A DNA stretch of 51,645 nt, from positions 1-51,645 of the IMG/VR virus record IMGVR_UViG_3300044825_002834. One strand, given 5' to 3'. The notes under the pieces were generated by a model. The model worked only from the letters and a program-made list of their open reading frames with translations. It had not been told where the DNA came from and made no database searches. Below are positions 6,897 to 32,362 of the stretch, in pieces. Origin of the DNA: a virus. Position numbers and translations under genes: made by a program. Positions within the stretch are counted from its first letter, which is position 1. Each line of letters starts with the position of its first letter.

Positions 6897-7370
6897 TTAA
6901 AGATTGTTAACAAAGAATTCGCGATAGTTTTTAACTTCGCGGCTGTTTAATTTCCTACTATCATTATAATCATGATACATGATAAAATCCACATTTTCTG
7001 CGTGTGGCAAAGCAAAAACATGACCAAATTCATGCAATGCGGATGATCTTAAATCATATCCAATGCCAAGCATTTTGCGCCAGCCACCAACATGCCATTT
7101 TTCGCGACTGTCAAAAGAGATTTCCCAACGGCGGGGGTTTCGGAAAGTGCGGCACTCTGCGATTCTGTTGGGGTTGAGTTTTTTATCTATTTTTTGATCA
7201 AAGCAGATGCGTATTTGAAGTTCGCCGTTTCCTTCTTTTAGCTCTACTAATCCTTTCATGCAGAAGTTCCACTCGTTTGTGGCACCGCGAATGGCAGAAA
7301 GAATTTGCTCATGGGATAGGTTCTTTGGCTTCCAGATTGGTAAATAAGTCCAGTGAACAATGTCGCTCAT
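6897..7370 (-). CDS. Matrixin-like zinc metalloprotease
   Basis: Encodes 157 aa from the ATG at 7370. Residues 113-123 read HEFGHVFALPH, the HExxHxxxxxH zinc site of metzincins, and a Met (IMYHDY) follows 8-10 residues later, as in their Met-turn. The domain is short and has no signal peptide. The start is chosen because the AGTGTA motif lies exactly 9 nt upstream, while the ATG at 7394 would place that motif inside the gene. Expression with virion genes suggests a structural-protein or lysis role, for example cleavage of peptidoglycan-linked or host proteins; the substrate is unknown. Confidence 0.75.
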   Translation of the reverse strand: MSDIVHWTYLPIWKPKNLSHEQILSAIRGATNEWNFCMKGLVELKEGNGELQIRICFDQKIDKKLNPNRIAECRTFRNPRRWEISFDSREKWHVGGWRKMLGIGYDLRSSALHEFGHVFALPHAENVDFIMYHDYNDSRKLNSREVKNYREFFVNNL

Positions 7371-7379
7371 GAATTTATT

Positions 7380-7385
7380 TACACT
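7380..7385 (-). promoter_or_regulatory. Candidate late promoter motif AGTGTA
   Basis: TAGTGTAA on the minus strand, with exactly 9 nt to the ATG at 7370. The same spacing occurs at 14796, 19650 and 29116. No sigma-70 -35 box is present. Confidence 0.6.
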
Positions 7386-7400
7386 AAATTTCAAGAAAGA

Positions 7401-8655: not shown

Positions 8656-9012
8656 TTAGTTCTCGCATACTATTTTTAATTGATGTAATTTTAATTCTTT
8701 TTCAACGAGCTTGTATGTTTCTAGCGTTTTAAAAATTGGATAACCATCATCGTCAGTTTCTCCCGACTCTTCCTCATCGTGCTCTCTTGTGCTAATGTGG
8801 AAAATACCAAGACCATATTTAATAGTTTGATTGTCTTCTTTATACAACAAACGCCATGGAGAACAGCCGTTATAGACCACGATAACATCTTTCTCTAAAC
8901 GCACCCTGCTAATATCGAAATAATAGTCTCCATATTGGAGTGCTGTGGCGGTAAATAAAAATGCGATAAAATTATCCCATTCTATGTCCTTCTCAATTAT
9001 TTTGTGACTCAT
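8656..9012 (-). CDS. Hypothetical phage protein
   Basis: Encodes 118 aa, with an N-terminal helix, strands around residues 28-75 and an acidic loop (EHDEEESGETDDDG). It ends in TAA and is followed in frame by 48 more protein-like codons. Overlaps the upstream gene by 4 nt. Unknown function. Confidence 0.65.
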   Translation of the reverse strand: MSHKIIEKDIEWDNFIAFLFTATALQYGDYYFDISRVRLEKDVIVVYNGCSPWRLLYKEDNQTIKYGLGIFHISTREHDEEESGETDDDGYPIFKTLETYKLVEKELKLHQLKIVCEN

Positions 9013-9269
9013 GCTTTTAATCTATACTCGATTTCAATTTCTACAAGCTCAAATTCATGAAAGTTTAGTGCAGCATATCGCTCACCATTCATGGTACTGC
9101 GCAGCAAGTCTTCTTCAATGATGTTGCGAGCATTGTAAAGCATACCTTCTGGTGAAAATTCATCAACAAGATGCATATATACATCCCAATTACTGATGAA
9201 TGTTTCTAATACAACCCACTTGCCCGTTGGCTTGTGACGGTATGCGAATTTTGTTTCAGTGTGAATCAT
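9009..9269 (-). CDS. Hypothetical phage protein
   Basis: Encodes 86 aa beginning with strands rich in Lys/Trp (YRHKPTGKWVVLETF) and ending in an acidic strand. ATGA overlaps at both ends place it in the middle of a coupled cassette driven from 9508-9535. No family recognised. Confidence 0.65.
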   Translation of the reverse strand: MIHTETKFAYRHKPTGKWVVLETFISNWDVYMHLVDEFSPEGMLYNARNIIEEDLLRSTMNGERYAALNFHEFELVEIEIEYRLKA

Positions 9270-9496
9270 ACTTTTGTTATAAAGAATCTCCTTTGACAGC
9301 TTGGTTGATTGTATCCTTCTACATGATCAGGGAAATAAATTTCATCCTCGTATAGATCAATTGTTTTTTCGTATCCATCAAGCCTGATTCGATGCATTTT
9401 GTATTTTCCAACGAACCATGATTTGATTGTTTCTCCAGTATGACCGAAGAAAAATTTTGGGGTAGAAATAATATCAACTGCGATAGCGACTCTCAT
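9266..9496 (-). CDS. Hypothetical phage protein
   Basis: Encodes 76 aa, strand-rich, with an aromatic and charged body. First gene of the cassette 9496-8200. The -10 box ends 11 nt before the ATG, giving a leader of only a few bases. No ribosome binding site. Function unknown. Confidence 0.65.
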   Translation of the reverse strand: MRVAIAVDIISTPKFFFGHTGETIKSWFVGKYKMHRIRLDGYEKTIDLYEDEIYFPDHVEGYNQPSCQRRFFITKV

Positions 9497-9507
9497 ATTA
9501 TGACTTT

Positions 9508-9535
9508 ACTGTAGAGAGATTTCTTTGCTTGTCAA
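9508..9535 (-). promoter_or_regulatory. Near-leaderless sigma-70-type promoter
   Basis: TTGACA (9530-9535), 16 bp, TACAGT (9508-9513), then 11 nt to the ATG at 9496. The -35 overlaps the stop of the 9532-9840 gene. Confidence 0.8.
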
Positions 9536-9840
9536 ATGGTTTTTTGCTTGGAAAGTTCCTGCATTTTTACCTCAATAAATGCTTTCATGAGCTTGTTTAG
9601 CTCTTCGCTGTCACCACCATATTCTGCGCCCAACACTGTGAGCAAGTTGCTTTTGAACGATGACTCTGCGAGAGAATGCACCCATTTCTCAACATCTTTT
9701 ACGTTGATGGGATGCACAATCTGCACTTTGTTCATTTGATTGATGGGGCTTTCGTTCCAAAAACACCAAATAAAAAGTGTAACAAATGCGGTGCCAATCA
9801 TGGTGATTAAGATGCTGGATTGAGTTTTTGATTCGTTCAT
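9532..9840 (-). CDS. Small membrane-anchored protein
   Basis: Encodes 102 aa. A single hydrophobic segment at residues 9-28 (ILITMIGTAFVTLFIWCFW) follows a short polar N-terminus, then a mostly helical soluble domain. Possibly inner-membrane with the domain outside. It lies next to the endolysin, so a lysis-accessory (spanin-like) role is conceivable, but the promoter is of the early type. Start fixed by the -10 box 5 nt upstream. Confidence 0.65.
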   Translation of the reverse strand: MNESKTQSSILITMIGTAFVTLFIWCFWNESPINQMNKVQIVHPINVKDVEKWVHSLAESSFKSNLLTVLGAEYGGDSEELNKLMKAFIEVKMQELSKQKTI

Positions 9841-9845
9841 TCCAA

Positions 9846-9873
9846 ACTATAGAACGAAAATCTAACTTGTCAA
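9846..9873 (-). promoter_or_regulatory. Leaderless sigma-70-type promoter
   Basis: TTGACA (9868-9873), 16 bp, TATAGT (9846-9851), then 5 nt to the ATG at 9840. The -35 overlaps the end of the amidase gene. Confidence 0.85.
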
Positions 9874-10622
9874 CAACTTTTTTGAATTGAATCAAGCTCT
9901 GCAAGCGAAATCATTGTAGCTCCTGCGGTTTTGTCATAGTAGGCTGTTTCGAGCCATTTTTCGCGCCAAAAGATTTTGCCGCTGACTGATTTTAAACCTT
10001 TTTTAATGTCTTCGTCCGAATATCCTTTGAGTTTTAGAATCGGCGCAAGAGGCGCAAAACTTGGTGCTAGTGTTGGCGGAGGACTGTTTGTGTATTTAAA
10101 ATCTTTGATCAAGTCAATCACCCAAGGCTTCTGAACCTTTGTGCCAGGGCATGTTTTGGTTGTGCGTGGGTCGTCACGATGAAACAATACAGTTTTATCA
10201 TTCACTGGCAGTTTGAGCCAATCTAACAGCATTTTTGTTGCGGCTGCTGCTGTTTTCCAGCACTCGAAACCTCTACCTTTCTTGGGGTCTTCGTTGTCGT
10301 AGTCTCCAAGCACTTCAATGCCCAAAGCGGTGCGATTAAAGCTAGAAGCATGAACGCCAGTTTCAGTTAATGGAGTCATGCCCCAAACTTGATCGTCATC
10401 AATGAATAAATGTGGTGCGCTGCGCCAACCTAATTGATTGGAATAGTAGTCTTTGAGGTTTTCCAAGTGTTTTGCTAGGAAACCATCTGGCCTTTGATTC
10501 AGGGAAGGCGCGGCTGTATGATGGAGGCAAACAGATTTAGCCCAAGTTGGAGCTTTAATTCCATTTAAATATTGAGCGAAACCGCTCACGGTCCAAACTT
10601 TTCCAGTGTTGCTAAAAGACAT
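9870..10622 (-). CDS. N-acetylmuramoyl-L-alanine amidase (endolysin)
   Basis: Encodes 250 aa. Residues about 27-165 form an amidase_2/PGRP domain: LHHTAAP places the zinc ligand His34 or His35, with FHRDD (His148) and TCPG (Cys158) as the other zinc ligands. It would cut the bond between muramic acid and the stem peptide. A Pro-rich linker (SPPPTLAPSFAPLAP) leads to a C-terminal 55-residue domain with a short GYSDEDIKKGLK helix, perhaps wall-binding. No signal peptide, so a holin or similar is needed; a holin candidate is at 28927. No clear promoter precedes its ATG. Confidence 0.9.
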   Translation of the reverse strand: MSFSNTGKVWTVSGFAQYLNGIKAPTWAKSVCLHHTAAPSLNQRPDGFLAKHLENLKDYYSNQLGWRSAPHLFIDDDQVWGMTPLTETGVHASSFNRTALGIEVLGDYDNEDPKKGRGFECWKTAAAATKMLLDWLKLPVNDKTVLFHRDDPRTTKTCPGTKVQKPWVIDLIKDFKYTNSPPPTLAPSFAPLAPILKLKGYSDEDIKKGLKSVSGKIFWREKWLETAYYDKTAGATMISLAELDSIQKSC

Positions 10623-10625
10623 ATA

Positions 10626-10883
10626 CTAATAGTAACAAATTGGATGATATTTTAAACCCTTGTAATCCTCTTGCCGCACAATGCTCTCGCGGGAGCGACC
10701 CGCATCCACTTCGGTAAGAGCATTGTTACTTTCCGTCATTTGGGTGACACCCTCTTTTGCAAGAGGCAGTTCCATCGGGATTTCGCTTGTGGCAGCGCGG
10801 CAATTTGTTAGTTGTGAGTATTGATTCACGGGGAATTTCGGCCCTCTCTTTTGGATACTTGCCACCCTTGTAACTAACTCGGA
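10626..10883 (-). ncRNA. GC-richer hairpin-rich intergenic region
   Basis: Base composition is richer in GC than the flanks and several perfect stems can form: ACAATGCTCT (10678-10687) with AGAGCATTGT (10717-10726), enclosing GCGGG (10689-10693) with CCCGC (10699-10703); GGGTG-A-CACCC (10742-10752); CCTCTT-TTGC-AAGAGG (10751-10766); CGCT (10784-10787) with AGCG (10794-10797). A 79-codon minus frame crosses it but has no recognisable character. A structured RNA between the 10884 gene and the endolysin is my preferred reading. Confidence 0.35.
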
Positions 10884-11231
10884 TTACCTGCGTTCCGATT
10901 TGGAAGGTTCATTAGCAGGTGAGTTATTCCCTTCCAAAATTGCTTGAACTTTGCGGCGAACGCGCAGTTCTGTATTGCTTTCCCAATATTCTGTAAAATA
11001 AAGCATTTGTTCAATCAACAAATCTTGCAGTCCTTTTTCTGCTTCTTTATAAGTGGGAAAAGTTTTTTCATAATCGCCAATCAAGTAACCGCGATGATGC
11101 AGTCGCCATTCTGATTTTTCGTAAGTTGAAAAGTTTTTTTCGATGTAGAAGTGACAGTCGCGATCCTTGTGATGATCGCCGCCAATTAATTCATACCATA
11201 GTTCAAGAAGTTGTTCGGTGAGTGCTTGCAT
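10884..11231 (-). CDS. Hypothetical phage protein
   Basis: Encodes 115 aa, helical at both ends, with His-rich patch (GGDHHKDRDCHFYIEK) and strands around 43-60. No recognised family. The start at 11231 lies 9 nt after a perfect -10 box. The next gene downstream is the endolysin, 260 bases away across the structured region. Confidence 0.65.
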   Translation of the reverse strand: MQALTEQLLELWYELIGGDHHKDRDCHFYIEKNFSTYEKSEWRLHHRGYLIGDYEKTFPTYKEAEKGLQDLLIEQMLYFTEYWESNTELRVRRKVQAILEGNNSPANEPSKSERR

Positions 11232-11240
11232 GGGTAGCTA

Positions 11241-11268
11241 ATTATAATATGAAAAATGAGCTTGTCAA
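11241..11268 (-). promoter_or_regulatory. Leaderless sigma-70-type promoter
   Basis: TTGACA (11263-11268), 16 bp, TATAAT (11241-11246), then 9 nt to the ATG at 11231. It overlaps the divergent late-type motif at 11268-11273, so the two promoters cannot be used at the same time. Confidence 0.85.
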
Positions 11269-11277
11269 GTGTATAAT
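11268..11277 (+). promoter_or_regulatory. Candidate late promoter (AGTGTA) with TATAAT overlap
   Basis: AAGTGTATAAT: AGTGTA at 11268-11273, 10 nt before the ATG at 11284. A TATAAT at 11272-11277 overlaps it, but no -35 box stands upstream. Shares bases with the divergent early -35. Confidence 0.55.
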
Positions 11278-11283
11278 TCATAT

Positions 11284-11685
11284 ATGAATGTTGAAGTTGA
11301 TTTTTCCGAAAAAATCGTCGCCTCTGGTCGCGCCTCTCTGATTACAAAATTGATTTACCTGCAAAATCAATTCAAAATTTTTCATTGGCAAACCTTTTCT
11401 TATGCAAATCATCAAGCTTTTGGTCATCTTTATGATGAATTAAGCGAAAAAATTGATGAGTTTGTGGAAACCTATCAAGGAATCTATGAGCGTCTTGACT
11501 TTAGCGGCGAAATGATTGCGTTCTCTAATCTGCGCGAAACAAATTTTGCAATGATTCTTTCAGAACAAGCAACAACTTTAAAAAGCTACGATGAAGTTTT
11601 CGCTGGACACACTGATTTGCTCAACCTTCGCGATGAAATGCTCGCAGTCTTGCACAAGACATCTTACTTGCTCACGCTAGTTTAA
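11284..11685 (+). CDS. DUF5856-like (ferritin-like/Dps-like) protein
   Basis: Encodes 133 aa, four predicted helices. The segment LQNQFKIFHWQT ... HQAFGHLYDELSEKIDEFVE resembles the helix bundle of Dps/ferritin-like proteins, with His/Glu/Asp residues in ferroxidase-like positions. I recall this as the DUF5856 group found in large phages and viruses. Iron or DNA binding is inferred. The ATG at 11284 is preferred to the GTG at 11269 because the AGTGTA motif and TATAAT sit directly before it. It ends at a bidirectional terminator. Confidence 0.75.
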   Translation: MNVEVDFSEKIVASGRASLITKLIYLQNQFKIFHWQTFSYANHQAFGHLYDELSEKIDEFVETYQGIYERLDFSGEMIAFSNLRETNFAMILSEQATTLKSYDEVFAGHTDLLNLRDEMLAVLHKTSYLLTLV

Positions 11686-11692
11686 AACCAAT

Positions 11693-11723
11693 AAAAAAGG
11701 GCGGCTTTTCAGCCGCCCTTTTT
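11693..11723. terminator. Bidirectional rho-independent terminator
   Basis: GGGCGGCT - TTTC - AGCCGCCC perfect stem, with A6 before and T5 after. Serves the DUF5856 gene on the plus strand and the DUF1501 gene on the minus strand. Confidence 0.95.
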
Positions 11724-11725
11724 GT

Positions 11726-12961
11726 TTACGCCAACAGTGATGGAATTGGCTTGCCTTTATCAGCGATTTTGAATGGTCGCCCTTCTGGAGAAATTAACAC
11801 TTGTTCAGTTTGTAATCCAGCAGCAGCAGCAATGGTAGCATTGAAATCTTGCGGAGAAACAATGCCATCCAAAACTTTCATGCCTTTGTCATCGCTCTTG
11901 CCATAAACTTGACCGCCTTTGATGCCAGCACCAATGAGAGCACTAGAGAATGCGCCAGGATGATGATCGCGCCCATCGTTCACGTTGATGATTGGCGTGC
12001 GTCCAAAGTCAGTAGTCACAACAATGAGAGTTTTCTTTAACAAGCCAGAAGCTTGCAAGTCTTCAATGAGAGCAGTTAAAGCTGTGTCAAGAATTGCTAA
12101 TTTATCTTCTAGTGCATCAAAGTTGTTAACGTGAGTGTCCCAACCACCATCTGACACTTCAATAAATTTGCAACCACCTTGCTCAATGAGTCTCTTGGCA
12201 AGGCAAACACCTTGGCCAAAACGATTGTTGCCATATTTTTCTCTCTTGTCTGCGGACTCTTTTGTGAGGTCAAAAATATCAAGCTCGGATGAGTTGAGCA
12301 AACGAACAGTTTGATCGTAGAATTCTGTGTAGCTCTTTTCAGAAGGATTTGCGCCCTTCATTGCATCGCGTTCAATTTGCTTGAGAACTTCAATGCGTTT
12401 GCTGAATTCTTCTTTGTTTCTAATCTTTGCGTTCTCCAAGCCGCGAAGAGGGTCTTGAATTGGAATAGGAGAATATTTCTTTGCCATCCAACCAGCGCCA
12501 GGATGGTCTGCTGGACCACTAATCAAAACATTTTGAGGGATGCTGATTTTTTCTCCCTTGTCTTGCATCTTGCACATCCATGCGCCCATGTTTGGATGAA
12601 TGATTGTGCCGATCTTCTTGTAGCTTGTGCGTTGAAGATACTGAGCTTGCTCATGTGCGCCAGTATTGACCATCATGCTGCGAATCACTGCCATCTTGTC
12701 GCCGTGTTTGGCGAGTTTTGGCAAGTGTTCGCTGATAGCATAATCAGCGTTTGTGTTGATAGAATTGAATTTGCCTTTTACTTCTGCGTCTTTCTTGGGG
12801 TCAAAAGTATCAAGATGGCTCATGCCACCATTCATAAACAAGTAAATAATGTGTTCTGCTTTGTTGGCAGACTGTGCAGCGTGAATTTCTGGTAGCACAG
12901 AAACGCCCAAGCCTGCACTGGCTAGACGAAGAACGAAGTCGCGACGATTGATAGAGTTCAT
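11726..12961 (-). CDS. DUF1501 family protein (alkaline phosphatase superfamily-like), Tat-type signal
   Basis: Encodes 411 aa. The N-terminus MNSINRRDFVLRLASAG is a twin-arginine-type signal. Residues 42-55 (FMNGGMSHLDTFDP) and the C-terminal GGWDTH, TDFGRTP and DGRDHHP are the characteristic DUF1501 motifs, positioned like metal ligands of the alkaline-phosphatase/sulfatase superfamily. In PVC bacteria DUF1501 genes are paired with DUF1549/DUF1553 genes, exactly as here, with a role not established. It starts 4 nt after the stop of that gene. An exported esterase, phosphatase or sulfatase acting on the host envelope is inferred. The TTG/ATG candidates upstream of 12961 lie inside the preceding gene. 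Confidence 0.92.
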   Translation of the reverse strand: MNSINRRDFVLRLASAGLGVSVLPEIHAAQSANKAEHIIYLFMNGGMSHLDTFDPKKDAEVKGKFNSINTNADYAISEHLPKLAKHGDKMAVIRSMMVNTGAHEQAQYLQRTSYKKIGTIIHPNMGAWMCKMQDKGEKISIPQNVLISGPADHPGAGWMAKKYSPIPIQDPLRGLENAKIRNKEEFSKRIEVLKQIERDAMKGANPSEKSYTEFYDQTVRLLNSSELDIFDLTKESADKREKYGNNRFGQGVCLAKRLIEQGGCKFIEVSDGGWDTHVNNFDALEDKLAILDTALTALIEDLQASGLLKKTLIVVTTDFGRTPIINVNDGRDHHPGAFSSALIGAGIKGGQVYGKSDDKGMKVLDGIVSPQDFNATIAAAAGLQTEQVLISPEGRPFKIADKGKPIPSLLA

Positions 12962-12965
12962 AAGA

Positions 12966-14735
12966 TTAATTAGAGAATTTAAATTCGGTTGAATTGAGCA
13001 ATGCCCAAATAACATCATCGTCATTTGCGCCAGAGAATGCGGCCTTCTCTGATAGTGTGGGTTTGCGGCTCAAAATGCTTTTGTAAATGATTTCCATCTT
13101 TTCGGATGGAGACTTGCCTGCCAAGGACTTGATGAGAGATGTTTCTTTGTTTGTGGCAATGTTTGCAAGCTGACCATTCATGAATGAGATTACTTGCGTC
13201 ACAGAACCTTCCAAGGAAGATGTTTGAATGAGTTCACGATCACTGCGGCCAAGTTGAGCAAGAATAGTGTTTGTTTGATTGGCATCATTGATTTCAGAAG
13301 CTCTTGCAACAACAACATTTGCAATCTTTGGCGCGAGAGAGTATTTGTCGCGCATAATTTGATTATACTTTTCGAGCTTCATTCTCATCTTCTCTAACGA
13401 AATATCCTCAATGGTTGTTTGCATGTTTTTTGCGTATTCAGTGTGAAATTCTGTTTTATATTGTTCTGGACTCTCCACGCAAAGAGCCACAACAGAATCC
13501 CAAAGCTGTTCTGCGGTGAGTCTGCGCTTCACTGGACCAATGAAAATAAAGTTTTCGCTGTTGGCGAAAGCTCCACTGTATGTTTGACGCTGAAAGAGTT
13601 TCGTGTTGCAAAGCACAAAAAGAAACTTTTGGCTATCATAGTTTAGTTCAACAAAAATGTTCGCCAAAGTGTTCATGAGTTCACTGTTCAAAGCGTCAGA
13701 GTCGTGAATGTTGTCGTATTCTGAAATGATATACTTGCCAAACACCAAGTTCCAGTAGCGATTCACAATGTTCTTTGTGAATGTGGGATGGTTGGGATTG
13801 GCGAGCCAAGCCACAGCGTCTTGCCGCAAATCTTCTTTGTTTTTGATTTCTCCTTTGCCGTCAAGAGTGCTTGGAACAACAGAGTCGTTTGGCTTTGCAT
13901 CCTTGTATTGATAATCATGAGGAAGCTTGAGTTCTTTTGTGGAGAGGATTTCAAGATCAGCTTGAGTAGCGCGAACAAAGTTATTAATTTGATTGTTCAA
14001 GCCGCGATTCTTAACAGGGTCGCTTTTAATGAGAGCATCAATGGTTTCTCTCAAGGCTTTGATCTTTTCGCGTGTTTCTTTTGATTCTTTTGGACGAAGC
14101 TCAATTTGATTAAACATTGCAGCCATTTTGTAGAACTGCATTTGTGTGAAGTCTTGGAAGGGGTCATCGTGACACTGTGCGCAGCCAATGTCCGTGCCTA
14201 GAAACACTTTGTTTGTGGCAATCAAGTTGTCAAGAGGCATTCCAACGTCTCTGTAGTAGTAACCAGTAGCAGGGTTGGAATAGTAATTGCCAGAGCTTAG
14301 GAGCAAATCTTTAACGAATAAATGATATGGTTTGTTTGCTGCAATGCAGTCTTTCACATAGTCAATGTATGGTCCGCCATTAAAATTATTGATTGGCGAG
14401 AGTCTTTCGCGCATTCTAAGAGCGTCTGCCCAAAAATTAAACATGTGCGAAATGTGGCCAGGATGTTTTAATAGATATTTAATTAGTTCTGTTTTTTTAT
14501 TTTCGGCAGAAGCAGAGAAGTAAGCATTGTATTCGCTAAACGTGGGATTGCGGCCAATGATGGTCAAATATGCTCTGCGCAAGAAAACGTCTTCGCTAAC
14601 TGGTGCAAGAGGTTTGATTTTGGCATTTAAACACTGCTTTTCTAGCACGTTGTCAATCTTGAAAGAGGCGAGATTCAAGTCTGCGCCAAAGGTTGATGCC
14701 AACAGACAAAATAAGATTAAAACTATTTTTTTCAT
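12966..14735 (-). CDS. DUF1549/DUF1553 protein with signal peptide and CxxCH
   Basis: Encodes 589 aa. Residues 1-18 form a signal peptide (MKKIVLILFCLLASTFGA). DUF1549 covers about 25-210, with a CAQCH heme-c-type motif at 185-189 followed by DDPFQDF. DUF1553 covers about 310-585 (WLANPNHPTFTKNIVNRYW; VKRRLTAEQLWDSV). Compared with the usual 800-1000 aa planctomycete proteins, the N-terminal cytochrome (PSCyt1) domain is missing. Its ATG is preceded by AAGTGTA (15 nt) and a weak AAAGG ribosome site. With DUF1501 it forms a two-gene exported unit. Biochemical function is unknown in any organism to my knowledge. Confidence 0.92.
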   Translation of the reverse strand: MKKIVLILFCLLASTFGADLNLASFKIDNVLEKQCLNAKIKPLAPVSEDVFLRRAYLTIIGRNPTFSEYNAYFSASAENKKTELIKYLLKHPGHISHMFNFWADALRMRERLSPINNFNGGPYIDYVKDCIAANKPYHLFVKDLLLSSGNYYSNPATGYYYRDVGMPLDNLIATNKVFLGTDIGCAQCHDDPFQDFTQMQFYKMAAMFNQIELRPKESKETREKIKALRETIDALIKSDPVKNRGLNNQINNFVRATQADLEILSTKELKLPHDYQYKDAKPNDSVVPSTLDGKGEIKNKEDLRQDAVAWLANPNHPTFTKNIVNRYWNLVFGKYIISEYDNIHDSDALNSELMNTLANIFVELNYDSQKFLFVLCNTKLFQRQTYSGAFANSENFIFIGPVKRRLTAEQLWDSVVALCVESPEQYKTEFHTEYAKNMQTTIEDISLEKMRMKLEKYNQIMRDKYSLAPKIANVVVARASEINDANQTNTILAQLGRSDRELIQTSSLEGSVTQVISFMNGQLANIATNKETSLIKSLAGKSPSEKMEIIYKSILSRKPTLSEKAAFSGANDDDVIWALLNSTEFKFSN

Positions 14736-14750
14736 AAGCCTTTAGTATTT

Positions 14751-14756
14751 TACACT
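14751..14756 (-). promoter_or_regulatory. Candidate late promoter motif for DUF1549-DUF1501
   Basis: AAGTGTAAAA on the minus strand; AGTGTA ends 15 nt before the ATG at 14735, 6 nt more than at most other late-type sites, which leaves room for AAAGG as a ribosome site. Confidence 0.55.
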
Positions 14757-14769
14757 TTTTAAAAAGCTT

Positions 14770-14790
14770 TTGAAAGATGGAATCTTTCAA
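14770..14790. repeat. Perfect dyad between divergent late genes
   Basis: TTGAAAGAT - GGA - ATCTTTCAA, a 9-bp perfect inverted repeat with a 3-nt centre. It lies between the two divergent AGTGTA motifs (14751-14756 and 14796-14801). It could be an operator for both genes or an RNA hairpin. Confidence 0.5.
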
Positions 14791-14795
14791 GGATA

Positions 14796-14801
14796 AGTGT
14801 A
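14796..14801 (+). promoter_or_regulatory. Candidate late promoter motif AGTGTA
   Basis: ATAAGTGTAAAAA; AGTGTA is followed by 9 nt and the ATG at 14811. No ribosome binding site, so the mRNA would be leaderless. Confidence 0.65.
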
Positions 14802-14810
14802 AAAATAATT

Positions 14811-16559
14811 ATGCCTCCAACGCCATCGCCTACGCCAACGCCGCCGCCCACTCCGCCGCCAACGCCTCCGCCGCCGCCAACGCCTCCGCCGCCGCCTACT
14901 CCACCACCGCCTCCTACGCCGCCGCCTCCGCCAACGCCTCCACCAACCTATTATCCTTACACTGGAACAGATTGCAGCGGAACGCCTGTTACAATTTACA
15001 CACTTAATAATTCCTTTAGTGTTAGTGATACTGCTTATTCAGACACCGCTAATCCAGCCCAACCCTATACTGGAGCTTTTGTTTATAATAATGCTTATTA
15101 TACTTATACCTCTGGAAACGGGTCGCTTGTTACTAATACTTACGCCCATTCTGGAACAGATTGCAGCAATGCTTCTGTAACGATTTACACAAATCAAAGC
15201 TCTTTTGCATATACCGATACTGCTTATACTAATCAATGTTTAACAACAACTTATACTGGAGACTTTATTCATAGTGGAAGCGTTTACGCATATAGCAATG
15301 GTGTTGGTAGTTTCAGTGGCATTCCTTATGTTTATTCTGGAACGAATTGCAGCGGTGGTGCTGCAACAATTTACACGGGATACAGTTCTTTTAGTTCTTC
15401 CGATACTGCATACAGCGATCAGTGTTTTAAAACGCTTTTTAGTGGCATTTTTATTCGCAGCGGAAATACCTATAAATATGTTGATGGCGTAGCCACACAA
15501 TACTACGCTCATGTTGGAACAGATTGTAATGGCGGAAGCGTAACAATTTATACAGTCGCTAGTAGTTTTGCTTATACTGATACAGCATATTCAGACTGCA
15601 ATATATCGTCTCTTTTTGATGGCACTTTTGTAAAAAATAATACGATCTATACTTACACTTCGGGTAGCGGAACAGCGGGGAATGCGACCCATGCTCATGC
15701 TGGCACAGATTGCAGCGGAAGCAGTGTAACAATTTACACAAACTCTAGCAGTTTTGCTTATACCGATACTGCCTACAGTGATTTGTGCCAAACAACAGCT
15801 TACACTGGATATTTTATTCTTAGTGGAGCGGTTTATTCATACAGCAGTGGCACTGGAACTCCCGTAACTTCTTATTCCCACTCTGTAACAAATTGCAGTG
15901 GTGGTTCTATTACGATTTATACTAATGCTACTCCGTTTAGTGCCAGTGATACGGCCTATAGTAACCCATGCCTAACCACAACTTTTAATGGAGCCATCTC
16001 CAGTGGCGGTGGCATTTACAAGTATAGCAGCGGTGTCTCTACACAATACTACGCTCATGTTGGAATTGATTGCGACAGTGTTTCTACTACAATTTATACT
16101 AATAGCAATACGTTTAATGTTGGTCAGACAGCGTATGCCTCTTCTTGCATCTCCACACTGTATAATGGATATTTTATTTTTGCTAGTTTTACATATTCAT
16201 ATACTGATGGTGTTGGAGGCGCAAGTTCTTGTCCAAGTCCACCAACGCCTCCGCCAACACCACCACCAACGCCTCCACCTTCGCCACCAACGCCGCCGCC
16301 GTCTCCACCAGCATATACCAATCCAAACATTTTACGAGCAGACATTCACTCAAGCTATGCGACTGGTTCTGGAACGTGGCAAACTTACCGAACCAATGTG
16401 ACAGGTTTGTTTGTGGCAAATTCTGGAACCAACAGGTCAGACTATCGCGACCACGTTATCCGAGAATTTAATCGTAAAATTAGCGTTTTAAATCAGCCCA
16501 CAGGCTTGTTTATCAAACCGTTTGACGATGGTTTTAGGTTTACGGGAGTTTCAATATAA
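14811..16559 (+). CDS. Pro-rich, seven-repeat putative adhesin/tail protein
   Basis: Encodes 582 aa. Residues 2-44 are a Pro/Thr stalk. Seven repeats of about 60 residues follow (to about 475), each with GTDCSG ... TIYT ... DTAYS ... C ... G-F ... YxYSxG, generally with two Cys per unit. A second Pro-rich linker (PPTPPPTPPPSPP) leads to an 85-residue globular C-terminus (NILRADIHSS ... RFTGVSI). One further copy of the repeat forms the N-terminus of the tail fibre at 43441. That link, the late-type promoter and the terminator behind it support a virion-surface adhesin. I do not recognise the repeat family. Confidence 0.8.
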   Translation: MPPTPSPTPTPPPTPPPTPPPPPTPPPPPTPPPPPTPPPPPTPPPTYYPYTGTDCSGTPVTIYTLNNSFSVSDTAYSDTANPAQPYTGAFVYNNAYYTYTSGNGSLVTNTYAHSGTDCSNASVTIYTNQSSFAYTDTAYTNQCLTTTYTGDFIHSGSVYAYSNGVGSFSGIPYVYSGTNCSGGAATIYTGYSSFSSSDTAYSDQCFKTLFSGIFIRSGNTYKYVDGVATQYYAHVGTDCNGGSVTIYTVASSFAYTDTAYSDCNISSLFDGTFVKNNTIYTYTSGSGTAGNATHAHAGTDCSGSSVTIYTNSSSFAYTDTAYSDLCQTTAYTGYFILSGAVYSYSSGTGTPVTSYSHSVTNCSGGSITIYTNATPFSASDTAYSNPCLTTTFNGAISSGGGIYKYSSGVSTQYYAHVGIDCDSVSTTIYTNSNTFNVGQTAYASSCISTLYNGYFIFASFTYSYTDGVGGASSCPSPPTPPPTPPPTPPPSPPTPPPSPPAYTNPNILRADIHSSYATGSGTWQTYRTNVTGLFVANSGTNRSDYRDHVIREFNRKISVLNQPTGLFIKPFDDGFRFTGVSI

Positions 16560-16591
16560 TAAAAAGGGCGGGATTTCTCCCGCCCTTTTTT
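16559..16591. terminator. Rho-independent terminator
   Basis: GGGCGGGA - TTTC - TCCCGCCC perfect stem, A5 before and T6 after, between the repeat-protein gene and the convergent rIIB gene; works in both directions. Confidence 0.95.
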
Positions 16592-16597
16592 GTGATC

Positions 16598-17590
16598 TTA
16601 ATCTTCCAAGTCAACTTCCCAACCCTCTTCTCCCTCATACCAGAAGTAACCAAGTTCATCAAGTGCATCCAGCACGCGATTCCTTGAGGGATATTCGGGT
16701 GAAAAGCTGTTCTGAATCTTGCGAATGCCAACAGCAGAGTAGCCTTTCTTTTTGCAATTTTCAAGATACTTCTCAACACGCTCCACAAATTCACTGCGCT
16801 TTTGAACAGTTTCGTTTTGCACAGGTTCGTTGTCTTCATCCACAACAGGAGCTTTGATTTCCTGCTCGAACACAGAAACAACCTTGTAAGCTGAAACTCG
16901 GCACTTTTGGCAGTTATAATCTGTGGGAACGCTCACAACATCTTTGGGATTCACTTTAACAACAACCACAGAGCCGCGAGCAAAGCCGCGAGCATAGTCG
17001 AGACTGCCAACATGAAGACCAAACGAGCAATGATTGTCGCGATTGTCGTCCACATCACGGCGCTTTACTTCAATCTCTGCGCCAACAGAGTTAAGAATGC
17101 GACCATGATTATCAATCTGACCCTTGACAACCTTCGTGTCCTTGTTGCCGCTAATGCTCCAGAAATCGCTTTCCAAGCCCTTGTAAGCAAGGAAGCAGCC
17201 ATCGTCAGTGATGGGGAGTTCCTTGTAAGCAAGGAAGTCATAAAGCTCACGAACAGAAGATGAAGATGGATTGTCTTGAATGTTTTGCCAGAACTTCTCA
17301 AACAAGTTGAGTGGCAAACCTTCACGATGAATGGAGCGCACCTTTTCAGCAAGAGCTTTTGGAAGAGTTTCGCCTTTGTAGGAAACCTCTTCTGGAGAGA
17401 TTTTAAATCCATTCTTTTCAGCGCGTTCAGAGGTCTTTTCGAGAGCTTTGCGAATTGCTGCTTCTTGCTGGTTTTCTGGCAAGTCAAACGCTTCAATGAT
17501 TTTGGCGTATTGGCTGGAACCCTTTTCGAGTTTGACTGGCTTGTTGTCGAGGAACAGGACAATGCCTGCTTGGTTGATGATGTAGTTCAT
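16598..17590 (-). CDS. rIIB: RIIB-like protein
   Basis: Encodes 330 aa. Residues about 110-235 (LYDFLAYKELPITDDGCFLAYKGL ... GSLDYARGFA ... NPKDVVSVP) correspond to the conserved core of T4 RIIB and its relatives, with a charged middle and a C-terminal wing-like segment. T4 RIIA and RIIB act together at the membrane to overcome exclusion by the lambda Rex system and influence lysis timing. Here each has its own leaderless promoter, and they are adjacent in the order rIIA-rIIB as in T4. The exact molecular action is unknown. Confidence 0.85.
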   Translation of the reverse strand: MNYIINQAGIVLFLDNKPVKLEKGSSQYAKIIEAFDLPENQQEAAIRKALEKTSERAEKNGFKISPEEVSYKGETLPKALAEKVRSIHREGLPLNLFEKFWQNIQDNPSSSSVRELYDFLAYKELPITDDGCFLAYKGLESDFWSISGNKDTKVVKGQIDNHGRILNSVGAEIEVKRRDVDDNRDNHCSFGLHVGSLDYARGFARGSVVVVKVNPKDVVSVPTDYNCQKCRVSAYKVVSVFEQEIKAPVVDEDNEPVQNETVQKRSEFVERVEKYLENCKKKGYSAVGIRKIQNSFSPEYPSRNRVLDALDELGYFWYEGEEGWEVDLED

Positions 17591-17599
17591 AGTGCAGTT

Positions 17600-17627
17600 A
17601 TTATAGTTTGGTTTTAGGGTTTGTCAA
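17600..17627 (-). promoter_or_regulatory. Leaderless sigma-70-type promoter of rIIB
   Basis: TTGACA (17622-17627), 16 bp, TATAAT (17600-17605), then 9 nt to the ATG at 17590. Both boxes are perfect. Confidence 0.88.
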
Positions 17628-17630
17628 GAA

Positions 17631-19574
17631 TTATTTGAGGCGAAGAATGGTGCGAAGTTCTTGGCGAGAGAGGTTTGGCTTGCTGGAGTAGTAATATCCA
17701 CTGTTGTCATTCATGGTTTTGATGATTTTGCCGCGAATAGAAATTTCATCCGCAATCTTTTCAAACACGCAGTTGGCTTTTTTAGCAAATTTAATGTTTC
17801 GCTTGGCCTTTTCAACTAGAGAGTTTGAGAGATCAATGCTCAAAAATTTCTTTTTGAGATTGTCAATGTTTTGGCGAGCTTTGGATTTTTCAGCCTCAAG
17901 TTCGCTGATTTGCTTGTGTTTGTCCTTGTATTCTTGGCTTTCTGCATCCAAGAAACCAAGAGAGACTAGGTTCTTGTGCATGGTTGAACTGCGAGTCACT
18001 GTGGTATTGCAATTTCTGGTTGAATTGGCTTGCTTGACCGTGAAGTTGTTGAGCTTCTTCAAAGAATCAAAAGTGATTTTGCTCATGTTTTCCTTGGCTT
18101 CCTCAATGGTGTTGGCGGTTTGAGGATAACCAGTAACCATTGTGCAAATGTGATTATAAACTTCCAAAGCATTTAAATCATAAGTTAGGTAATAACCACT
18201 AACACTATTGATTTGAACACAGAAGGAGGCATTCATGGACAAATCAACCTTAGCTCCTGCTGTTTTTGGCCAGCCAAAGATGGTGCTCTTCACATTGCGC
18301 ATTTCAAAAACCTCATTGATCTTGCTCATGTCGCAGCCGCTCAAACCTTCTGCATACACTAGATAGTATTTTTTACCATTTTTATTGGCAAGAGTTTCAA
18401 ACTTGTCTCTCCAATATGCGAGAGTTTTGCGAGATTTGATGATGGCACACAAGGGCTTGCCTTTGACTTTTTCAAAGTCTGCACCAGCGCCAGCGGTTGA
18501 AATTCCAGTGATAAAAGGATAAACGTCAGAATAAATGTTCTTCTTATAGACTGAAAAGTTTTCGCCATGAAGGAATACATTGTTGCGATCTTCAACGAGT
18601 TCTTGAAGAGACATTGGCTTGATGGAATCAATGTCTTCTTTGGCGATTTCACGCAAAGCGTGCTGCATGTTAGCAAGAACTCGGTTATTGCTTGCTGTGT
18701 TTTCAAAATTCTCACGCGAGATTGGCAAGCTCATTGCGCCAATAGGCACATCAATAAACAACATGAGATTTTCTTTGAGCTTCGGGCTTTTTAAAACTTC
18801 ATTAGAAAATGTTTTTTTGTAAACCACGTTGCCCATTGTTGCATAAATGTCATTATGCATGTAATAGCTTGCTTCTCTTTCAAAGAACCTGAAAACAAAA
18901 CCATCCTTTTCAATTCTCGAAACTGGCTTGAGAGGTTCTACGCGAACAGAGAAAATATCAAAAACAATATTCGCAGAGCAAAACTTCACAAAAAACTCGC
19001 TCTTTTCCCTGAAACGGCTCATATCTGAACCTGTTTTAATTTCCAAATAAACTTCCAAGCCAGTTTCTTTTGTGGGAGATTCGCTGACTTTCAAGATGTG
19101 ACCAACAGGAACTCCTGTATCTCCGCCACCAAGAGCGCAAGCATAGAGTGTGCAAACGCCATTGTGGTAGCTTTTCACATAAAAAGTATCAGTGTAACTA
19201 TGCGCAGCTTTGCTGCCAATGCCAAAGCCACCAATCTGCTCATTGTTGCCGCTCTTTGTGCTGCGAAAATACATGCCAAACACGTTGCGAATGTCGTTTT
19301 CGCTCAAGCCCTTGGCAAAGTCGCGAACAAAAAAGATGTTGGAGCCGTCTTCGTCACGAATTCCAACCTCCACTGCACGATCAATATTGTGCTTCTTGTG
19401 CTCATCAAGAGCATTGCAAATGTATTCGCGCACAACAGCAAGAATCTTGTCGCTGTAAATCTTGTCGCGAAGATAATAAGTAGCCATGTCTGCGCCTTTA
19501 GCGTCCATGCCCATGATGGAGGAAGACATGTTTTCCGAAGTGATGAGTGGGTTTGCAAGAGTTTGTGTTTTCAT
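17631..19574 (-). CDS. rIIA: RIIA-like protein with GHKL ATPase domain
   Basis: Encodes 647 aa. The N-terminal 200 residues form a GHKL/HSP90-type ATPase: N-box EYICNALDEH (about 48-57), G1 box DFAKGLS, and G2 box GGFGIGSKAA. The rest is long and helical with a coiled-coil region near 545-590. This matches T4 RIIA in length and domain layout. With RIIB it is expected to protect the phage from prophage-encoded exclusion. The ATG is 8 nt after its -10 box and there is no ribosome site. Confidence 0.88.
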   Translation of the reverse strand: MKTQTLANPLITSENMSSSIMGMDAKGADMATYYLRDKIYSDKILAVVREYICNALDEHKKHNIDRAVEVGIRDEDGSNIFFVRDFAKGLSENDIRNVFGMYFRSTKSGNNEQIGGFGIGSKAAHSYTDTFYVKSYHNGVCTLYACALGGGDTGVPVGHILKVSESPTKETGLEVYLEIKTGSDMSRFREKSEFFVKFCSANIVFDIFSVRVEPLKPVSRIEKDGFVFRFFEREASYYMHNDIYATMGNVVYKKTFSNEVLKSPKLKENLMLFIDVPIGAMSLPISRENFENTASNNRVLANMQHALREIAKEDIDSIKPMSLQELVEDRNNVFLHGENFSVYKKNIYSDVYPFITGISTAGAGADFEKVKGKPLCAIIKSRKTLAYWRDKFETLANKNGKKYYLVYAEGLSGCDMSKINEVFEMRNVKSTIFGWPKTAGAKVDLSMNASFCVQINSVSGYYLTYDLNALEVYNHICTMVTGYPQTANTIEEAKENMSKITFDSLKKLNNFTVKQANSTRNCNTTVTRSSTMHKNLVSLGFLDAESQEYKDKHKQISELEAEKSKARQNIDNLKKKFLSIDLSNSLVEKAKRNIKFAKKANCVFEKIADEISIRGKIIKTMNDNSGYYYSSKPNLSRQELRTILRLK

Positions 19575-19582
19575 TGTGCGTT

Positions 19583-19610
19583 AGTATAGGCTCAAAAAGC
19601 AGCTTGTCAA
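19583..19610 (-). promoter_or_regulatory. Leaderless sigma-70-type promoter of rIIA
   Basis: TTGACA (19605-19610), 16 bp, TATACT (19583-19588), then 8 nt to the ATG at 19574. Confidence 0.85.
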
Positions 19611-19649
19611 GAGCAAAGTCAAAATCTTCTTCAAAATTGTTGGTTAAAA

Positions 19650-19655
19650 AGTGTA
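19650..19655 (+). promoter_or_regulatory. Candidate late promoter motif AGTGTA
   Basis: AAAAAGTGTAATT; AGTGTA is followed by 9 nt and the ATG at 19665. The ATG at 19661 (out of frame, short) is only 5 nt away and opens no useful frame. Confidence 0.65.
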
Positions 19656-19664
19656 ATTAAATGG

Positions 19665-21011
19665 ATGGCTGACTTATACGCTTTTCAAAACCTTGCAGAG
19701 TTATCGCATACCGCTGGTCAAATTCCATTTATTTTGGACAAGGCCAACGATTGTTATAGGCCGCTTGGACAAGATGATTTAAGTTTTGCAAATAGTGCTG
19801 GTTCCACTACTTTTGATGCGTTTGGGCGCATGAGAACTTCTCAGCCTTTGACTCTGTTCGATTCAAGTCACAGATACGCTGATAATGGTCTTTGGGCATC
19901 TGCTAGTGGAACTGGTGGATATGTTTCTTTTAACCAAAACCAAGGCTTGATAGACATGAACGTGACCAGTGGTTCTGGCTCTTATGTCACAAGAGAAACA
20001 ACAAAAGTTTTTGCCTATCAGCCTGGCAAGTCTCTTTTGAATTTAAATACATTTGTAATGTCGCCAGCCAAAACTGGTCTAAGACAAAGGGTTGGTTATT
20101 TTGGCGCGGATAATGGAATGTTTTTGGAACTTGACGGCTCTACACTAAACTTTGTTGAGCGTTCATTGGTTGATGGTTCTCCCCCAACAGAAACAAGAGT
20201 TCAGCAGTCTAGCTGGAATGGAGACAAACTAGATGGCAACGGCGCATCTGGCTTAACTCTTGACATTACCAAAGCTCAAATTTTATGGATGGACATTGAG
20301 TGGTTGGGTCTTGGCTCTGTGAGAATGGGTTTTGTTATTGACGGCAAATTTATTTTGTGCCACACCTTTCAACACGCAAACGTCATTGATTCAACATACA
20401 TTACCACTGCTTCTCTTCCTTTAAGATATGAAATAATTAATACCGCCAACACTTCTGGCAACAGCACACTCAAACAAATATGTAGTTCTCTTATTTCAGA
20501 GGGTGGTTATGAACTAAGAGGTGCGCAGCAATCAATCAGCAGCAATGTTGCTGCTCCATACGAATTAATCACTGCAACAAATACTGATTATCCAATCATA
20601 ACAATTAGATTAAAATCAACCAAACTTGACGCTATTGTTATTTTGACAGCTATATCTTTGTTACCCGCTTCTTCTGGAAATTTTCGATGGAAATTAATTC
20701 TCAGTGGCACAACGAGTGGTGGCAGCGAAACTTGGACACCTACTGGAACAAATTCAGCAGTGGAATATAAAATGGATGCTACAAGTATTTCGGGCGGTAG
20801 AACTGTCGCCTCTGGATTTATTAGCCAGTCTAATCAGTCTAATCCTGCCTTAGACATTTTAAAAGAGGCTTTATTTAAATTCCAGTTAGAAAGAAATGGG
20901 TTAACCAATACGCCTTATGAACTAACTCTTGTTGTTGCTGCTGGAAGCGCTACTGGCGGTAATCCAGCCAAAGTTCTCGCCTCTCTTGATTGGGAAGAAA
21001 TTAGTAGATAA
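19665..21011 (+). CDS. Virion structural protein (conserved phage family)
   Basis: Encodes 448 aa. The N-terminal region (TTFDAFGRMRTSQPLTLFDS) is a signature I associate with a large-phage and marine-phage structural protein family. The remainder is strand-rich and Gly/Ser-rich, consistent with a capsid-decoration or tail-surface protein. No enzymatic motif. Monocistronic on the plus strand, preceded by the late-type motif and followed after 3 nt by the end of tRNA-Tyr on the other strand. Its exact place in the particle is unknown. Confidence 0.75.
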   Translation: MADLYAFQNLAELSHTAGQIPFILDKANDCYRPLGQDDLSFANSAGSTTFDAFGRMRTSQPLTLFDSSHRYADNGLWASASGTGGYVSFNQNQGLIDMNVTSGSGSYVTRETTKVFAYQPGKSLLNLNTFVMSPAKTGLRQRVGYFGADNGMFLELDGSTLNFVERSLVDGSPPTETRVQQSSWNGDKLDGNGASGLTLDITKAQILWMDIEWLGLGSVRMGFVIDGKFILCHTFQHANVIDSTYITTASLPLRYEIINTANTSGNSTLKQICSSLISEGGYELRGAQQSISSNVAAPYELITATNTDYPIITIRLKSTKLDAIVILTAISLLPASSGNFRWKLILSGTTSGGSETWTPTGTNSAVEYKMDATSISGGRTVASGFISQSNQSNPALDILKEALFKFQLERNGLTNTPYELTLVVAAGSATGGNPAKVLASLDWEEISR

Positions 21012-21014
21012 TTT

Positions 21015-21100
21015 TGGTGGGCAAGGTAGAATTCGAATCTACTCAATCAAAGATAAAAGATTTACAGTCTTTCGCATCTCTCCAACTATGCCGCTTGCCC
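21015..21100 (-). tRNA. tRNA-Tyr (anticodon GUA), CCA encoded
   Basis: The acceptor GGGCAAG pairs with CTTGCCC, followed by A and an encoded CCA. The anticodon stem AAAGA/TCTTT encloses CTGTAAA, giving anticodon GUA. The variable arm is long, as in bacterial tRNA-Tyr. T-arm GTAGA-TTCGAAT-TCTAC. It has no obvious promoter of its own and is probably co-transcribed with the 21109-21471 gene. Confidence 0.93.
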
Positions 21101-21108
21101 CAAAATTT

Positions 21109-21471
21109 TTATGAATTGATTAGCTTATCAACGTCTTCATTGATGTTTTTGACAAACTTGTAGTCTCCATCATTCAAAAAACTAAGAATAGTGCCAAAAC
21201 CAACAGGTTCAGGAAAGTCTGAATACACTTTCAAACCGTTAAGTCCAGCAATTTGATAACGCTTCTCTTTGCCGTAAAAACTGGCATCATGGCTAGTTTC
21301 CATGATGATCACCGAAGTAAATTCTGCACGAAATACATCGCCAGCTTCAAACCACTCAATCTTGGAGTCAAGGTCTTCGCTGTCATTAGTATTTTGAATC
21401 AAGCCAAGCTCTATGAGTTTGTTGATGTCAACTTTGTATTCTTTGTTGTCGAGTGTGAGAGTTGCTTTCAT
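21109..21471 (-). CDS. Hypothetical phage protein
   Basis: Encodes 120 aa. Begins with strands (ATLTLDNKEYKVDI), then a mixed alpha/beta body. Its -10 box ends 6 nt before the ATG, and that promoter lies inside the end of the upstream gene. The gene is followed by tRNA-Tyr. No family recognised. Confidence 0.7.
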   Translation of the reverse strand: MKATLTLDNKEYKVDINKLIELGLIQNTNDSEDLDSKIEWFEAGDVFRAEFTSVIIMETSHDASFYGKEKRYQIAGLNGLKVYSDFPEPVGFGTILSFLNDGDYKFVKNINEDVDKLINS

Positions 21472-21734
21472 AGCGTAACTGTATCGTTGGTTTGAGAGTT
21501 GTCAACCATAAAATTGAATTTGAGTTGATTTTGGTTGTCAATCAAGGGAGCTTGAATCTCTTCAACAATCTCTGGAAATCCAGAAACGAGACAGTCAAAA
21601 GCTTCTGCGCCAGACAAGATAGCTGCTGAAAGGCTATGATTTGCCACGATGTCTTTTTGATCTTCAAGAAGCATGGAGGCAATTTGAAGTTTTTTAATAG
21701 CGTTTTTAATTGCAGTTTTTTGTGTTTTATTCAT
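21468..21734 (-). CDS. Hypothetical helical phage protein
   Basis: Encodes 88 aa, N-terminally basic and helical (KKLQIASMLLEDQKDIVANH). Its last codons (VDNSQTNDTV) coincide with the promoter of the next gene, so the sequence is under double constraint there. Starts inside the end of a 33-codon membrane frame. Unknown function. Confidence 0.65.
   Translation of the reverse strand: MNKTQKTAIKNAIKKLQIASMLLEDQKDIVANHSLSAAILSGAEAFDCLVSGFPEIVEEIQAPLIDNQNQLKFNFMVDNSQTNDTVTL
21478..21505 (-). promoter_or_regulatory. Leaderless sigma-70-type promoter inside a gene
   Basis: TTGACA (21500-21505), 16 bp, TACAGT (21478-21483), then 6 nt to the ATG at 21471. Fully inside the coding end of 21468-21734. 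Confidence 0.75.
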
Positions 21735-21828
21735 GAGTAGAGAGTATCATTTTAATTCCAATAAAAATACCAAAACCTGCTAAAAATAGCAGCCCAAGTA
21801 ATTGAAGATCAGTTAGTGGTTGGTGCAT
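21727..21828 (-). CDS. 33-residue membrane microprotein
   Basis: Encodes 33 aa with one hydrophobic helix (residues 9-28, LQLLGLLFLAGFGIFIGIKM). It overlaps the gene before it by 20 nt and the gene after it by 8 nt, as expected in a packed cassette. Phages often carry such one-helix proteins, but a chance frame cannot be excluded. Confidence 0.5.
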   Translation of the reverse strand: MHQPLTDLQLLGLLFLAGFGIFIGIKMILSTHE

Positions 21829-22009
21829 CGGAGTTTTGCACTCGTTGTTGAAAAATCAAAAGCAATAGTTTTAATTGTTCTGTTGTGCAGTTGCATATTA
21901 CGTCTTCGCCCGTCTCAACATTAAAGCCAATCACTAAATATTTGTCAAAAATAGAGCCAAGATGAGCTTCTGCTAGAGCTTTTGCGGTTTCAACTTTACT
22001 CTTGTCCAT
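21809..22009 (-). CDS. Small hypothetical phage protein
   Basis: Encodes 66 aa from the ATG at 22009, preferred over the TTG at 22021. Short helix, strands with Cys pair (DVICNCTTEQ) and a Leu-rich helix (LKLLLLIFQQRV). Overlaps the upstream gene by 14 nt. Unknown function. Confidence 0.65.
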   Translation of the reverse strand: MDKSKVETAKALAEAHLGSIFDKYLVIGFNVETGEDVICNCTTEQLKLLLLIFQQRVQNSDAPTTN

Positions 22010-22184
22010 AAAAGATTTCAAAAGTGTCTTTGTTGAGTTGGCGGGAGTCTTCTAGCTGTTCTGACAATTCGCGCAAACGATCTGCTGCTTCTAGCAAGCA
22101 AGAGTTAACAATGCCGTCTTCTGTTTCAATATCTTGCGCCAAGACTCTAAGAGCAGCGATCAAAGTTTGTGTTGATGATTTCAT
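21996..22184 (-). CDS. Small helical phage protein
   Basis: Encodes 62 aa, nearly all helix (ALRVLAQDIETEDGIVNSCL ... ADRLRELSEQLED). A TTGACA (22219-22224 region) stands upstream but the -10 position (TAACCT) is poor. Leads a four-gene overlapping cassette toward tRNA-Tyr. Function unknown. Confidence 0.65.
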   Translation of the reverse strand: MKSSTQTLIAALRVLAQDIETEDGIVNSCLLEAADRLRELSEQLEDSRQLNKDTFEIFYGQE

Positions 22185-22221
22185 ATTTCTTAAAAAAGGT
22201 TACATGGGCAAGGAACTTTTG

Positions 22222-23231: not shown

Positions 23232-23234
23232 AAT

Positions 23235-23399: not shown

Positions 23400-23405
23400 A
23401 ATTTT

Positions 23406-23818: not shown

Positions 23819-23821
23819 AAA

Positions 23822-30035: not shown

Positions 30036-30063
30036 AATATAGACTAATATCCAAAAGCGTCAA
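30036..30063 (-). promoter_or_regulatory. Leaderless sigma-70-type promoter
   Basis: TTGACG (30058-30063), 16 bp, TATATT (30036-30041), then 5 nt to the ATG at 30030. Overlaps the end of the ThyX gene. Confidence 0.78.
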
Positions 30064-32357: not shown

Positions 32358-32362
32358 ATTAA

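Follow-up and report, generated by a model that had tools for sequence, protein, structure and literature searches.

A phage-borne PSCyt2-PSD1/DUF1501 gene pair of PVC type, probably expressed late and linked to lysis genes in several phage groups

We found that a viral DNA stretch of 51,645 nucleotides (hereafter the window, a linear 51.6-kb IMG/VR virus record of siphovirus type) carries an intact PSCyt2-PSD1/DUF1501 gene pair, and that several phage groups have related pairs linked to lysis genes. The best explanation, to which we give a probability of roughly 0.48, is that the pair encodes late, exported enzymes that, together with the endolysin, would loosen the host envelope so that the cell lyses and virions are released. 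An initial annotation had described the two families as of PVC type and unexplained, which is borne out by the cellular relatives found here and by the literature, where they are known and abundant in PVC bacteria and remain functionally unexplained (PMC5615132, PMC2754498, PMC4452313, PMC4960237). Our literature search found no paper on the pair, or on DUF1501, in phages; one mention of DUF1501 (PMC5418858) concerns a weak match of a 61-aa protein and is apparently unrelated. The phage clades, the three-gene set and the lysis association reported below appear to be new to the literature, and the second phage DUF1501 paralogue, the lysis-gene link in several groups and the large phage-specific clades go beyond the initial annotation.

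The pair shows the order of the two-gene operon, with DUF1501 directly 3' of PSCyt2-PSD1 on one strand:

12966 to 14735, minus strand: PSCyt2-PSD1 (DUF1549/DUF1553) gene, 589 aa (Pfam PF07583, E=1.2e-33; PF07587, E=3.5e-24)
11726 to 12961, minus strand: DUF1501 gene, 411 aa from ATG 12961 (Pfam PF07394, E=1.1e-97; start placed by alignment with relatives)

Both open reading frames are intact over the annotated region, and the pair is carried by a phage, as had been annotated. The DUF1501 frame as listed runs up to 13024, and the ATG at 13024 falls within the PSD1 gene; because relatives begin at the equivalent residue, the true start is most likely ATG 12961 (MNSINRRDF...). With this start, the spacer between the genes is 4 nt (12962-12965), as had been annotated. 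DUF1501 matches PF07394 over its full length (profile 1-389 of 390) with 328 bits against a curated cut-off of 27, and PSCyt2 (117 bits) and PSD1 (86 bits) are both above cut-off within one protein, so that by profile matching the two are members of known protein families. Neither protein matched any PHROGs or NCBIfam family, and an Rfam scan of the window gave no match. The hallmark motifs CAQCH, GGWDTH and DGRDHHP are all present in the window proteins. As judged from their sequences, the N-terminus of PSCyt2-PSD1 is Sec-like and that of DUF1501 is of the twin-arginine type (RRDF), and both proteins look exported, in agreement with the export signals noted at the outset.

The surroundings of the pair contain the following features:

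9870 to 10622, minus strand: endolysin (Amidase_2), 1.1 kb from the 3' end of the pair (PF01510, E=4e-13; PHROG lysis families)
11267 to 11273: AAGTGTA 5' of the DUF5856-like gene
11284 to 11685, plus strand: DUF5856-like gene, convergent with the pair
11690 to 11726: terminator-like hairpin with a T-run (AAAAAGGGCGGCTTTTCAGCCGCCCTTTTT), read from the sequence, between the convergent DUF5856-like gene and the pair
14746 to 14757, minus strand: late-type promoter-like element AAGTGTAAAATA upstream of the pair (exact match; position-specific enrichment upstream of starts)
14795 to 14801, plus strand: AAGTGTA upstream of the divergent repeat-protein gene
14811 to 16559, plus strand: repeat protein with a proline-rich N-terminus followed by ~60-aa repeats
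19649 to 19655, plus strand: AAGTGTA upstream of the virion structural protein gene
19665 to 21011: virion structural protein (phrog_1645, E=1.9e-139)
39300 to 43436: J-like protein, part of a lambda-type tail-tip set with minor tail proteins (PHROG match)

AAGTGTA occurs 9 times in the window against 5.1 expected, which is only a slight excess, since 7 of 100 shuffles reach 9. In a binomial test over 108 gene starts (those of the window plus the right-hand part of its 91.6-kb relative), AGTGTAA and AAGTGTA ranked first and second of 1872 7-mers for enrichment just upstream of starts, where 8 of 20 and 7 of 16 copies were found (p ~2e-10 and ~2e-9; ~5e-7 and ~3e-6 after correction for the 1872 7-mers). 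The genes of the window that bear the element are the DUF5856-like gene at 11284, PSD1, the repeat-protein gene at 14811 and the virion structural protein gene at 19665, and many other genes have, read by eye, TTGACA-TATAAT-like promoters in its place. The proposed link of the pair to late-type expression is therefore likely; we call the pair 'late' because it has the element in common with structural-type neighbours, which is a reading of DNA rather than of RNA. This examination covered the window phage type only, and in the T4-like relatives the T4 late motif TATAAATA was not consistently upstream of the pair.

Several other genes of the window were recorded alongside. A gene for an RNA polymerase sigma factor with sigma-70 region 2 (32818-33405) might read the AAGTGTA element. 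The repeat unit of 14811-16559 also begins a fibre-like gene (43441-46452) downstream of tail protein J (blastp E to 1e-6), and the two genes have in common a ~55-60-aa repeat unit and long proline-rich stretches; they may represent a second fibre tip or an exchangeable one. There are two Sulfotransfer_2 genes (35581-36276 and 47622-48212) in the same phage as the sulfatase-fold DUF1501, with a similar open reading frame seen by eye in the 91.6-kb relative (G001, 51564-52202), and a glycosyltransferase gene. The window also has genes for a Matrixin-like (Peptidase_M10) metalloprotease (6897-7394), with relatives near the pair in other phages (L006, L037, L041, L043, L044), for a UvsE-type UV endonuclease (31446-32390) and for ThyX (30044-30721).

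The pair is carried by related phages as well. Positions 9008-23862 of the window match two other IMG/VR contigs (3300031857_000076, 91.6 kb, and 3300008117_000309) at 98.6-98.9% identity, and because these contigs diverge from the window outside this ~14-kb block, the pair is part of a phage segment common to them. Profile scans of IMG/VR gave 98 PSD1 and 471 DUF1501 stretches, some of which could lie on cellular contigs, so that only inspected contigs were counted as phage; single-sequence scans gave 24 DUF1501 and 35 PSD1 loci. When a further 80 viral DUF1501 loci were checked, PSD1 was directly upstream in 59 of the 73 that had enough upstream sequence. The INPHARED phages gave no match to DUF1501 or PSD1 of the window. 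A second DUF1501 paralogue, absent from the window, is present in many relatives. One locus (L024, 12402-12803) holds a fused remnant of 133 aa made of the PSD1 start and the DUF1501 end, apparently an in-frame deletion, and has kept its second DUF1501.

The carriers vary. Those of the window type have tail genes of siphoviruses, and many of the rest are T4-like; apart from the pair, the window and the latter have almost no gene in common. In the T4-like carriers the pair lies beside ssb/clamp/helicase genes, next to the sheath-stabiliser/portal/capsid operon, or beside baseplate genes. The position directly 5' of tail-sheath stabiliser and portal genes in one T4-like group, and that beside baseplate genes in another, would suit proteins packaged in or attached to the particle and acting at entry, as the initial annotation had offered. 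We regard virion enzymes as very improbable nonetheless, since both proteins have conserved export-type N-termini while the virions of tailed phages are assembled in the cytoplasm, and the gene context differs among phage groups.

The linkage of the pair to lysis genes is real in several phage groups. In one set of loci (L157-L182 and L208), an Amidase_2, Phage_lysozyme or Phage_lysozyme2 gene was no more than 2.1 kb from the pair in 22 of 24 loci, several being directly adjacent, which corresponds to 10 of the 11 clusters formed at 90% PSD1 identity. The recurrent order is endolysin, small hydrophobic protein, 90-aa protein, PSD1, DUF1501, outer-membrane-barrel-like protein and lysozyme. An endolysin gene is also near the pair in L021; in L025 an exported-looking NlpC/P60-type protein is encoded between the second DUF1501 and PSD1, directly before PSD1; and six T4-like loci have a weakly holin-like gene (PHROG E=1e-4, one member) immediately 5' of the second DUF1501. 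As a rough estimate of chance, with one endolysin gene per 200-kb genome, a 5-kb neighbourhood would be a 5% event per group. No recognised lysis gene was found close to the pair in the T4-like replication-cluster group (L029-L036, L050), in L032/L034 or L044-L057, or in a second phage clade (L184-L211), and three genomes (G002, G003, G007) have a single Amidase_2 gene far from the pair. The linkage is thus not universal but confined to some phage groups. Part of the second phage clade (L193-L201, L209) has, between PSD1 and DUF1501, an opposite-strand gene for a 128-aa exported-looking protein containing cysteines.

Outer-membrane-barrel-like genes adjoin the pair in two phage groups. They are just 3' of DUF1501 in many loci (L157-L170, L175, L021; weak PF24653/PF13505 matches), and such genes also stand ahead of PSD1 in six loci of the second phage clade.

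A tree built from paired DUF1501s, 57 from phages and 61 from cells, resolved the phage proteins into exactly two phage-only clades, one of 43 rows (SH-aLRT 96) that includes the window and one of 14 rows (100), both nested among host-lineage paralogues of Verrucomicrobiota and Planctomycetota. Because a single phage clade was weakly rejected as a constraint (AU p=0.038), two phage origins of the paired DUF1501 are likely rather than certain. The PSD1 tree, with fewer rows, likewise placed the phage copies in groups of their own. The window DUF1501 is 69-75% identical to those of its nearest other phages, and its best cellular matches are at 50% (Verrucomicrobiota) and 51% (Planctomycetota). 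Verrucomicrobiota, the donor in a first tree, were dropped as such once Planctomycetota were added, the best copies being equally close (51% vs 50%). Since the PSD1-DUF1501 order is kept in most of the cellular loci examined, the operon was captured as one unit. The second DUF1501, acquired separately, has its nearest counterparts in a Verrucomicrobiota lineage (64% vs 59% in Planctomycetota). Pairwise dN/dS was 0.04-0.21 across all three phage genes (PSD1, DUF1501 and the second DUF1501), so that all three are under purifying selection.

These results bear on whether the region might be an assembly chimera, the danger flagged in the initial annotation, or else contamination from cells or neutral passenger DNA. 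Cells carry the families in abundance, and the pair has a G+C content of 42%, the whole record one of 38%; both would be in keeping with chimera or contamination. However, the block recurs in other contigs, the phage copies form phage-only clades, and phage structural and lysis genes adjoin the pair in many contigs, and the dN/dS values are low, so that the chance of such an explanation is next to negligible.

In the DUF1501 alignment, Arg6, Phe319-Gly320-Arg321, Gly330 and His333 are invariant and Arg7, Phe9, Arg331 and Asp332 nearly so, and the window protein has the FGR and GRDH motifs and the double-arginine N-terminus of the family. Its structure model (pLDDT 86) matched 231 PDB chains at E<=0.001 in Foldseek, with sulfatases as the best (9e-8); across sulfatases and LtaS/LtaP, E ranged from 9e-8 to 5e-6 with modest TM-scores of ~0.4. 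DUF1501 is thus predicted to have the sulfatase/alkaline-phosphatase fold, and sequence likeness to the alkaline phosphatase superfamily is confined to the TDFGR region. The conserved residues Asp54, Asp275, His277, Asp/Glu318 and His333 are plausible candidate metal ligands. In the alkaline phosphatase superfamily the nucleophile is usually Ser, Thr or Cys. At the position where we infer that it would be expected, at the corresponding helix start, DUF1501 has the invariant His103 and no conserved Ser, Thr or Cys, a point that speaks against the envelope-enzyme explanation.

The CAQCH motif (residues 185-189) lies within the PSCyt2 domain. Cys185 and His189 are invariant among 26 aligned PSD1 proteins, and CxxCH is present in all sampled phage copies; the form CAQCH is invariant in phage and cellular copies, two phage copies with CCQCH aside. 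The phage copies thus combine the CxxCH and the Sec-type N-terminus expected from the sequence of a c-type cytochrome. The AF2 model of PSD1 (pLDDT 87.5) is all-alpha and matched no PDB structure at E<=0.001, hence no known cytochrome c fold, and for this reason we do not file PSD1 as a cytochrome c. Local resemblance to phycobilisome linkers, in sequence and in fold, was weak. The phage copy had been described as short and lacking the N-terminal cytochrome domain. PSCyt1 is indeed absent, but it is also absent from 8 of 8 cellular relatives scanned, so that its absence is not special to the phage; the shortness is due to missing internal insertions, as seen by alignment with cellular copies, and CxxCH is retained in PSCyt2.

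An invariant or nearly invariant CxxCH could also indicate auxiliary metabolism, in which the CxxCH protein and DUF1501 would aid periplasmic redox or polysaccharide use by the host during infection. PSCyt genes lie near sulfatase genes in freshwater Verrucomicrobia, with a proposed role in carbohydrate metabolism (PMC5615132). We consider such a role unlikely: the hosts already have many paralogues (5-39 matches across the seven Verrucomicrobiota genomes scanned), the phage contexts have no accompanying metabolic genes in common, and the late-type timing and the lysis linkage fit it poorly.

The main rival to a lysis-stage role is modification of the receptor or surface during infection, whereby the exported pair would alter or remove a host surface glycan or receptor, sparing progeny from loss on debris and excluding other phages. 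Exported-looking enzymes with a sulfatase-like fold are compatible with this, as are the Sulfotransfer_2 and glycosyltransferase genes of the phage, the repeats common to the divergent neighbour and the fibre-like tail gene, and the adjoining barrel-like genes. Surface modification alone, however, leaves the direct linkage to endolysin/lysozyme genes unexplained, and the pair has a late-type element, whereas exclusion genes are usually early. Although it is the strongest competitor, we hold it to be somewhat unlikely. Envelope action near the end of infection is favoured because late-type expression, export signals, lysis linkage and a sulfatase-type fold are combined in the pair. We propose that phages have domesticated a PVC-type envelope operon, of which the pair is a copy that would be expressed late in infection. 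The helical CxxCH protein PSCyt2-PSD1 would be exported via Sec and the sulfatase/phosphatase-fold DUF1501 via Tat; in the periplasm or outer envelope the two, possibly in a complex, would jointly attack a glycan or lipid of the host envelope, which would thereby be loosened and, with the endolysin also at work, let the cell lyse and the virions out. What we infer for the pair comprises export, complex formation, haem attachment, hydrolase activity, substrate and the role in release. Since sulfotransferase genes are present in the same phage, sulfated glycans are the substrate to consider first.

A bolder reading, which we think unlikely, is that PSCyt2-PSD1 and DUF1501 form an unrecognised envelope-opening system of phages of PVC bacteria, in which an envelope component peculiar to these hosts is dismantled by a helical protein carrying haem and an enzyme of sulfatase fold, as a counterpart or adjunct to spanins. 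If it were true, the dozens of cellular paralogues would remodel the envelope of the host itself. The genetics of these families is defeated by dozens of paralogues per host. Phages have pared them down to a single compact pair, or to three genes, maintained under selection and placed beside lysis genes in several groups, which would make the phage pair a minimal, testable system with a concrete hypothesis (late, exported, envelope-acting). The pair also points to something in the envelope of PVC-type hosts with which their phages must deal.

Among known systems, the cellular PSCyt2-PSD1/DUF1501 operons of Verrucomicrobiota and Planctomycetota have the domains, order and orientation of the phage pair, and have in common with it the CAQCH motif, the twin-arginine-type start and the FGR and GRDH motifs. 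In contrast, cellular PSD1 is often longer, with internal insertions (521-857 aa among those scanned), identity between the window DUF1501 and its cellular counterparts does not exceed ~50%, and the phage copies fall in their own clades. Formylglycine sulfatases and LtaS-type phosphoglycerol transferases resemble the DUF1501 model in overall fold, but DUF1501 is only 10-15% identical to them, is without the CxPxR sulfatase motif and a visible conserved Ser/Thr/Cys nucleophile, and has its metal-site residues rearranged relative to sulfatases. The best viral fold match to the model (E=2e-10), UniProt A0A6J5M742 of an uncultured Caudovirales phage, is a 489-aa protein already in the databases as a DUF1501 domain-containing protein, with 13% identity to the window DUF1501 over the structural alignment. 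Neither pair protein resembles a known lysis protein or a PHROG family; yet in several phage groups the pair lies in or beside lysis cassettes of the holin, endolysin and spanin kind.
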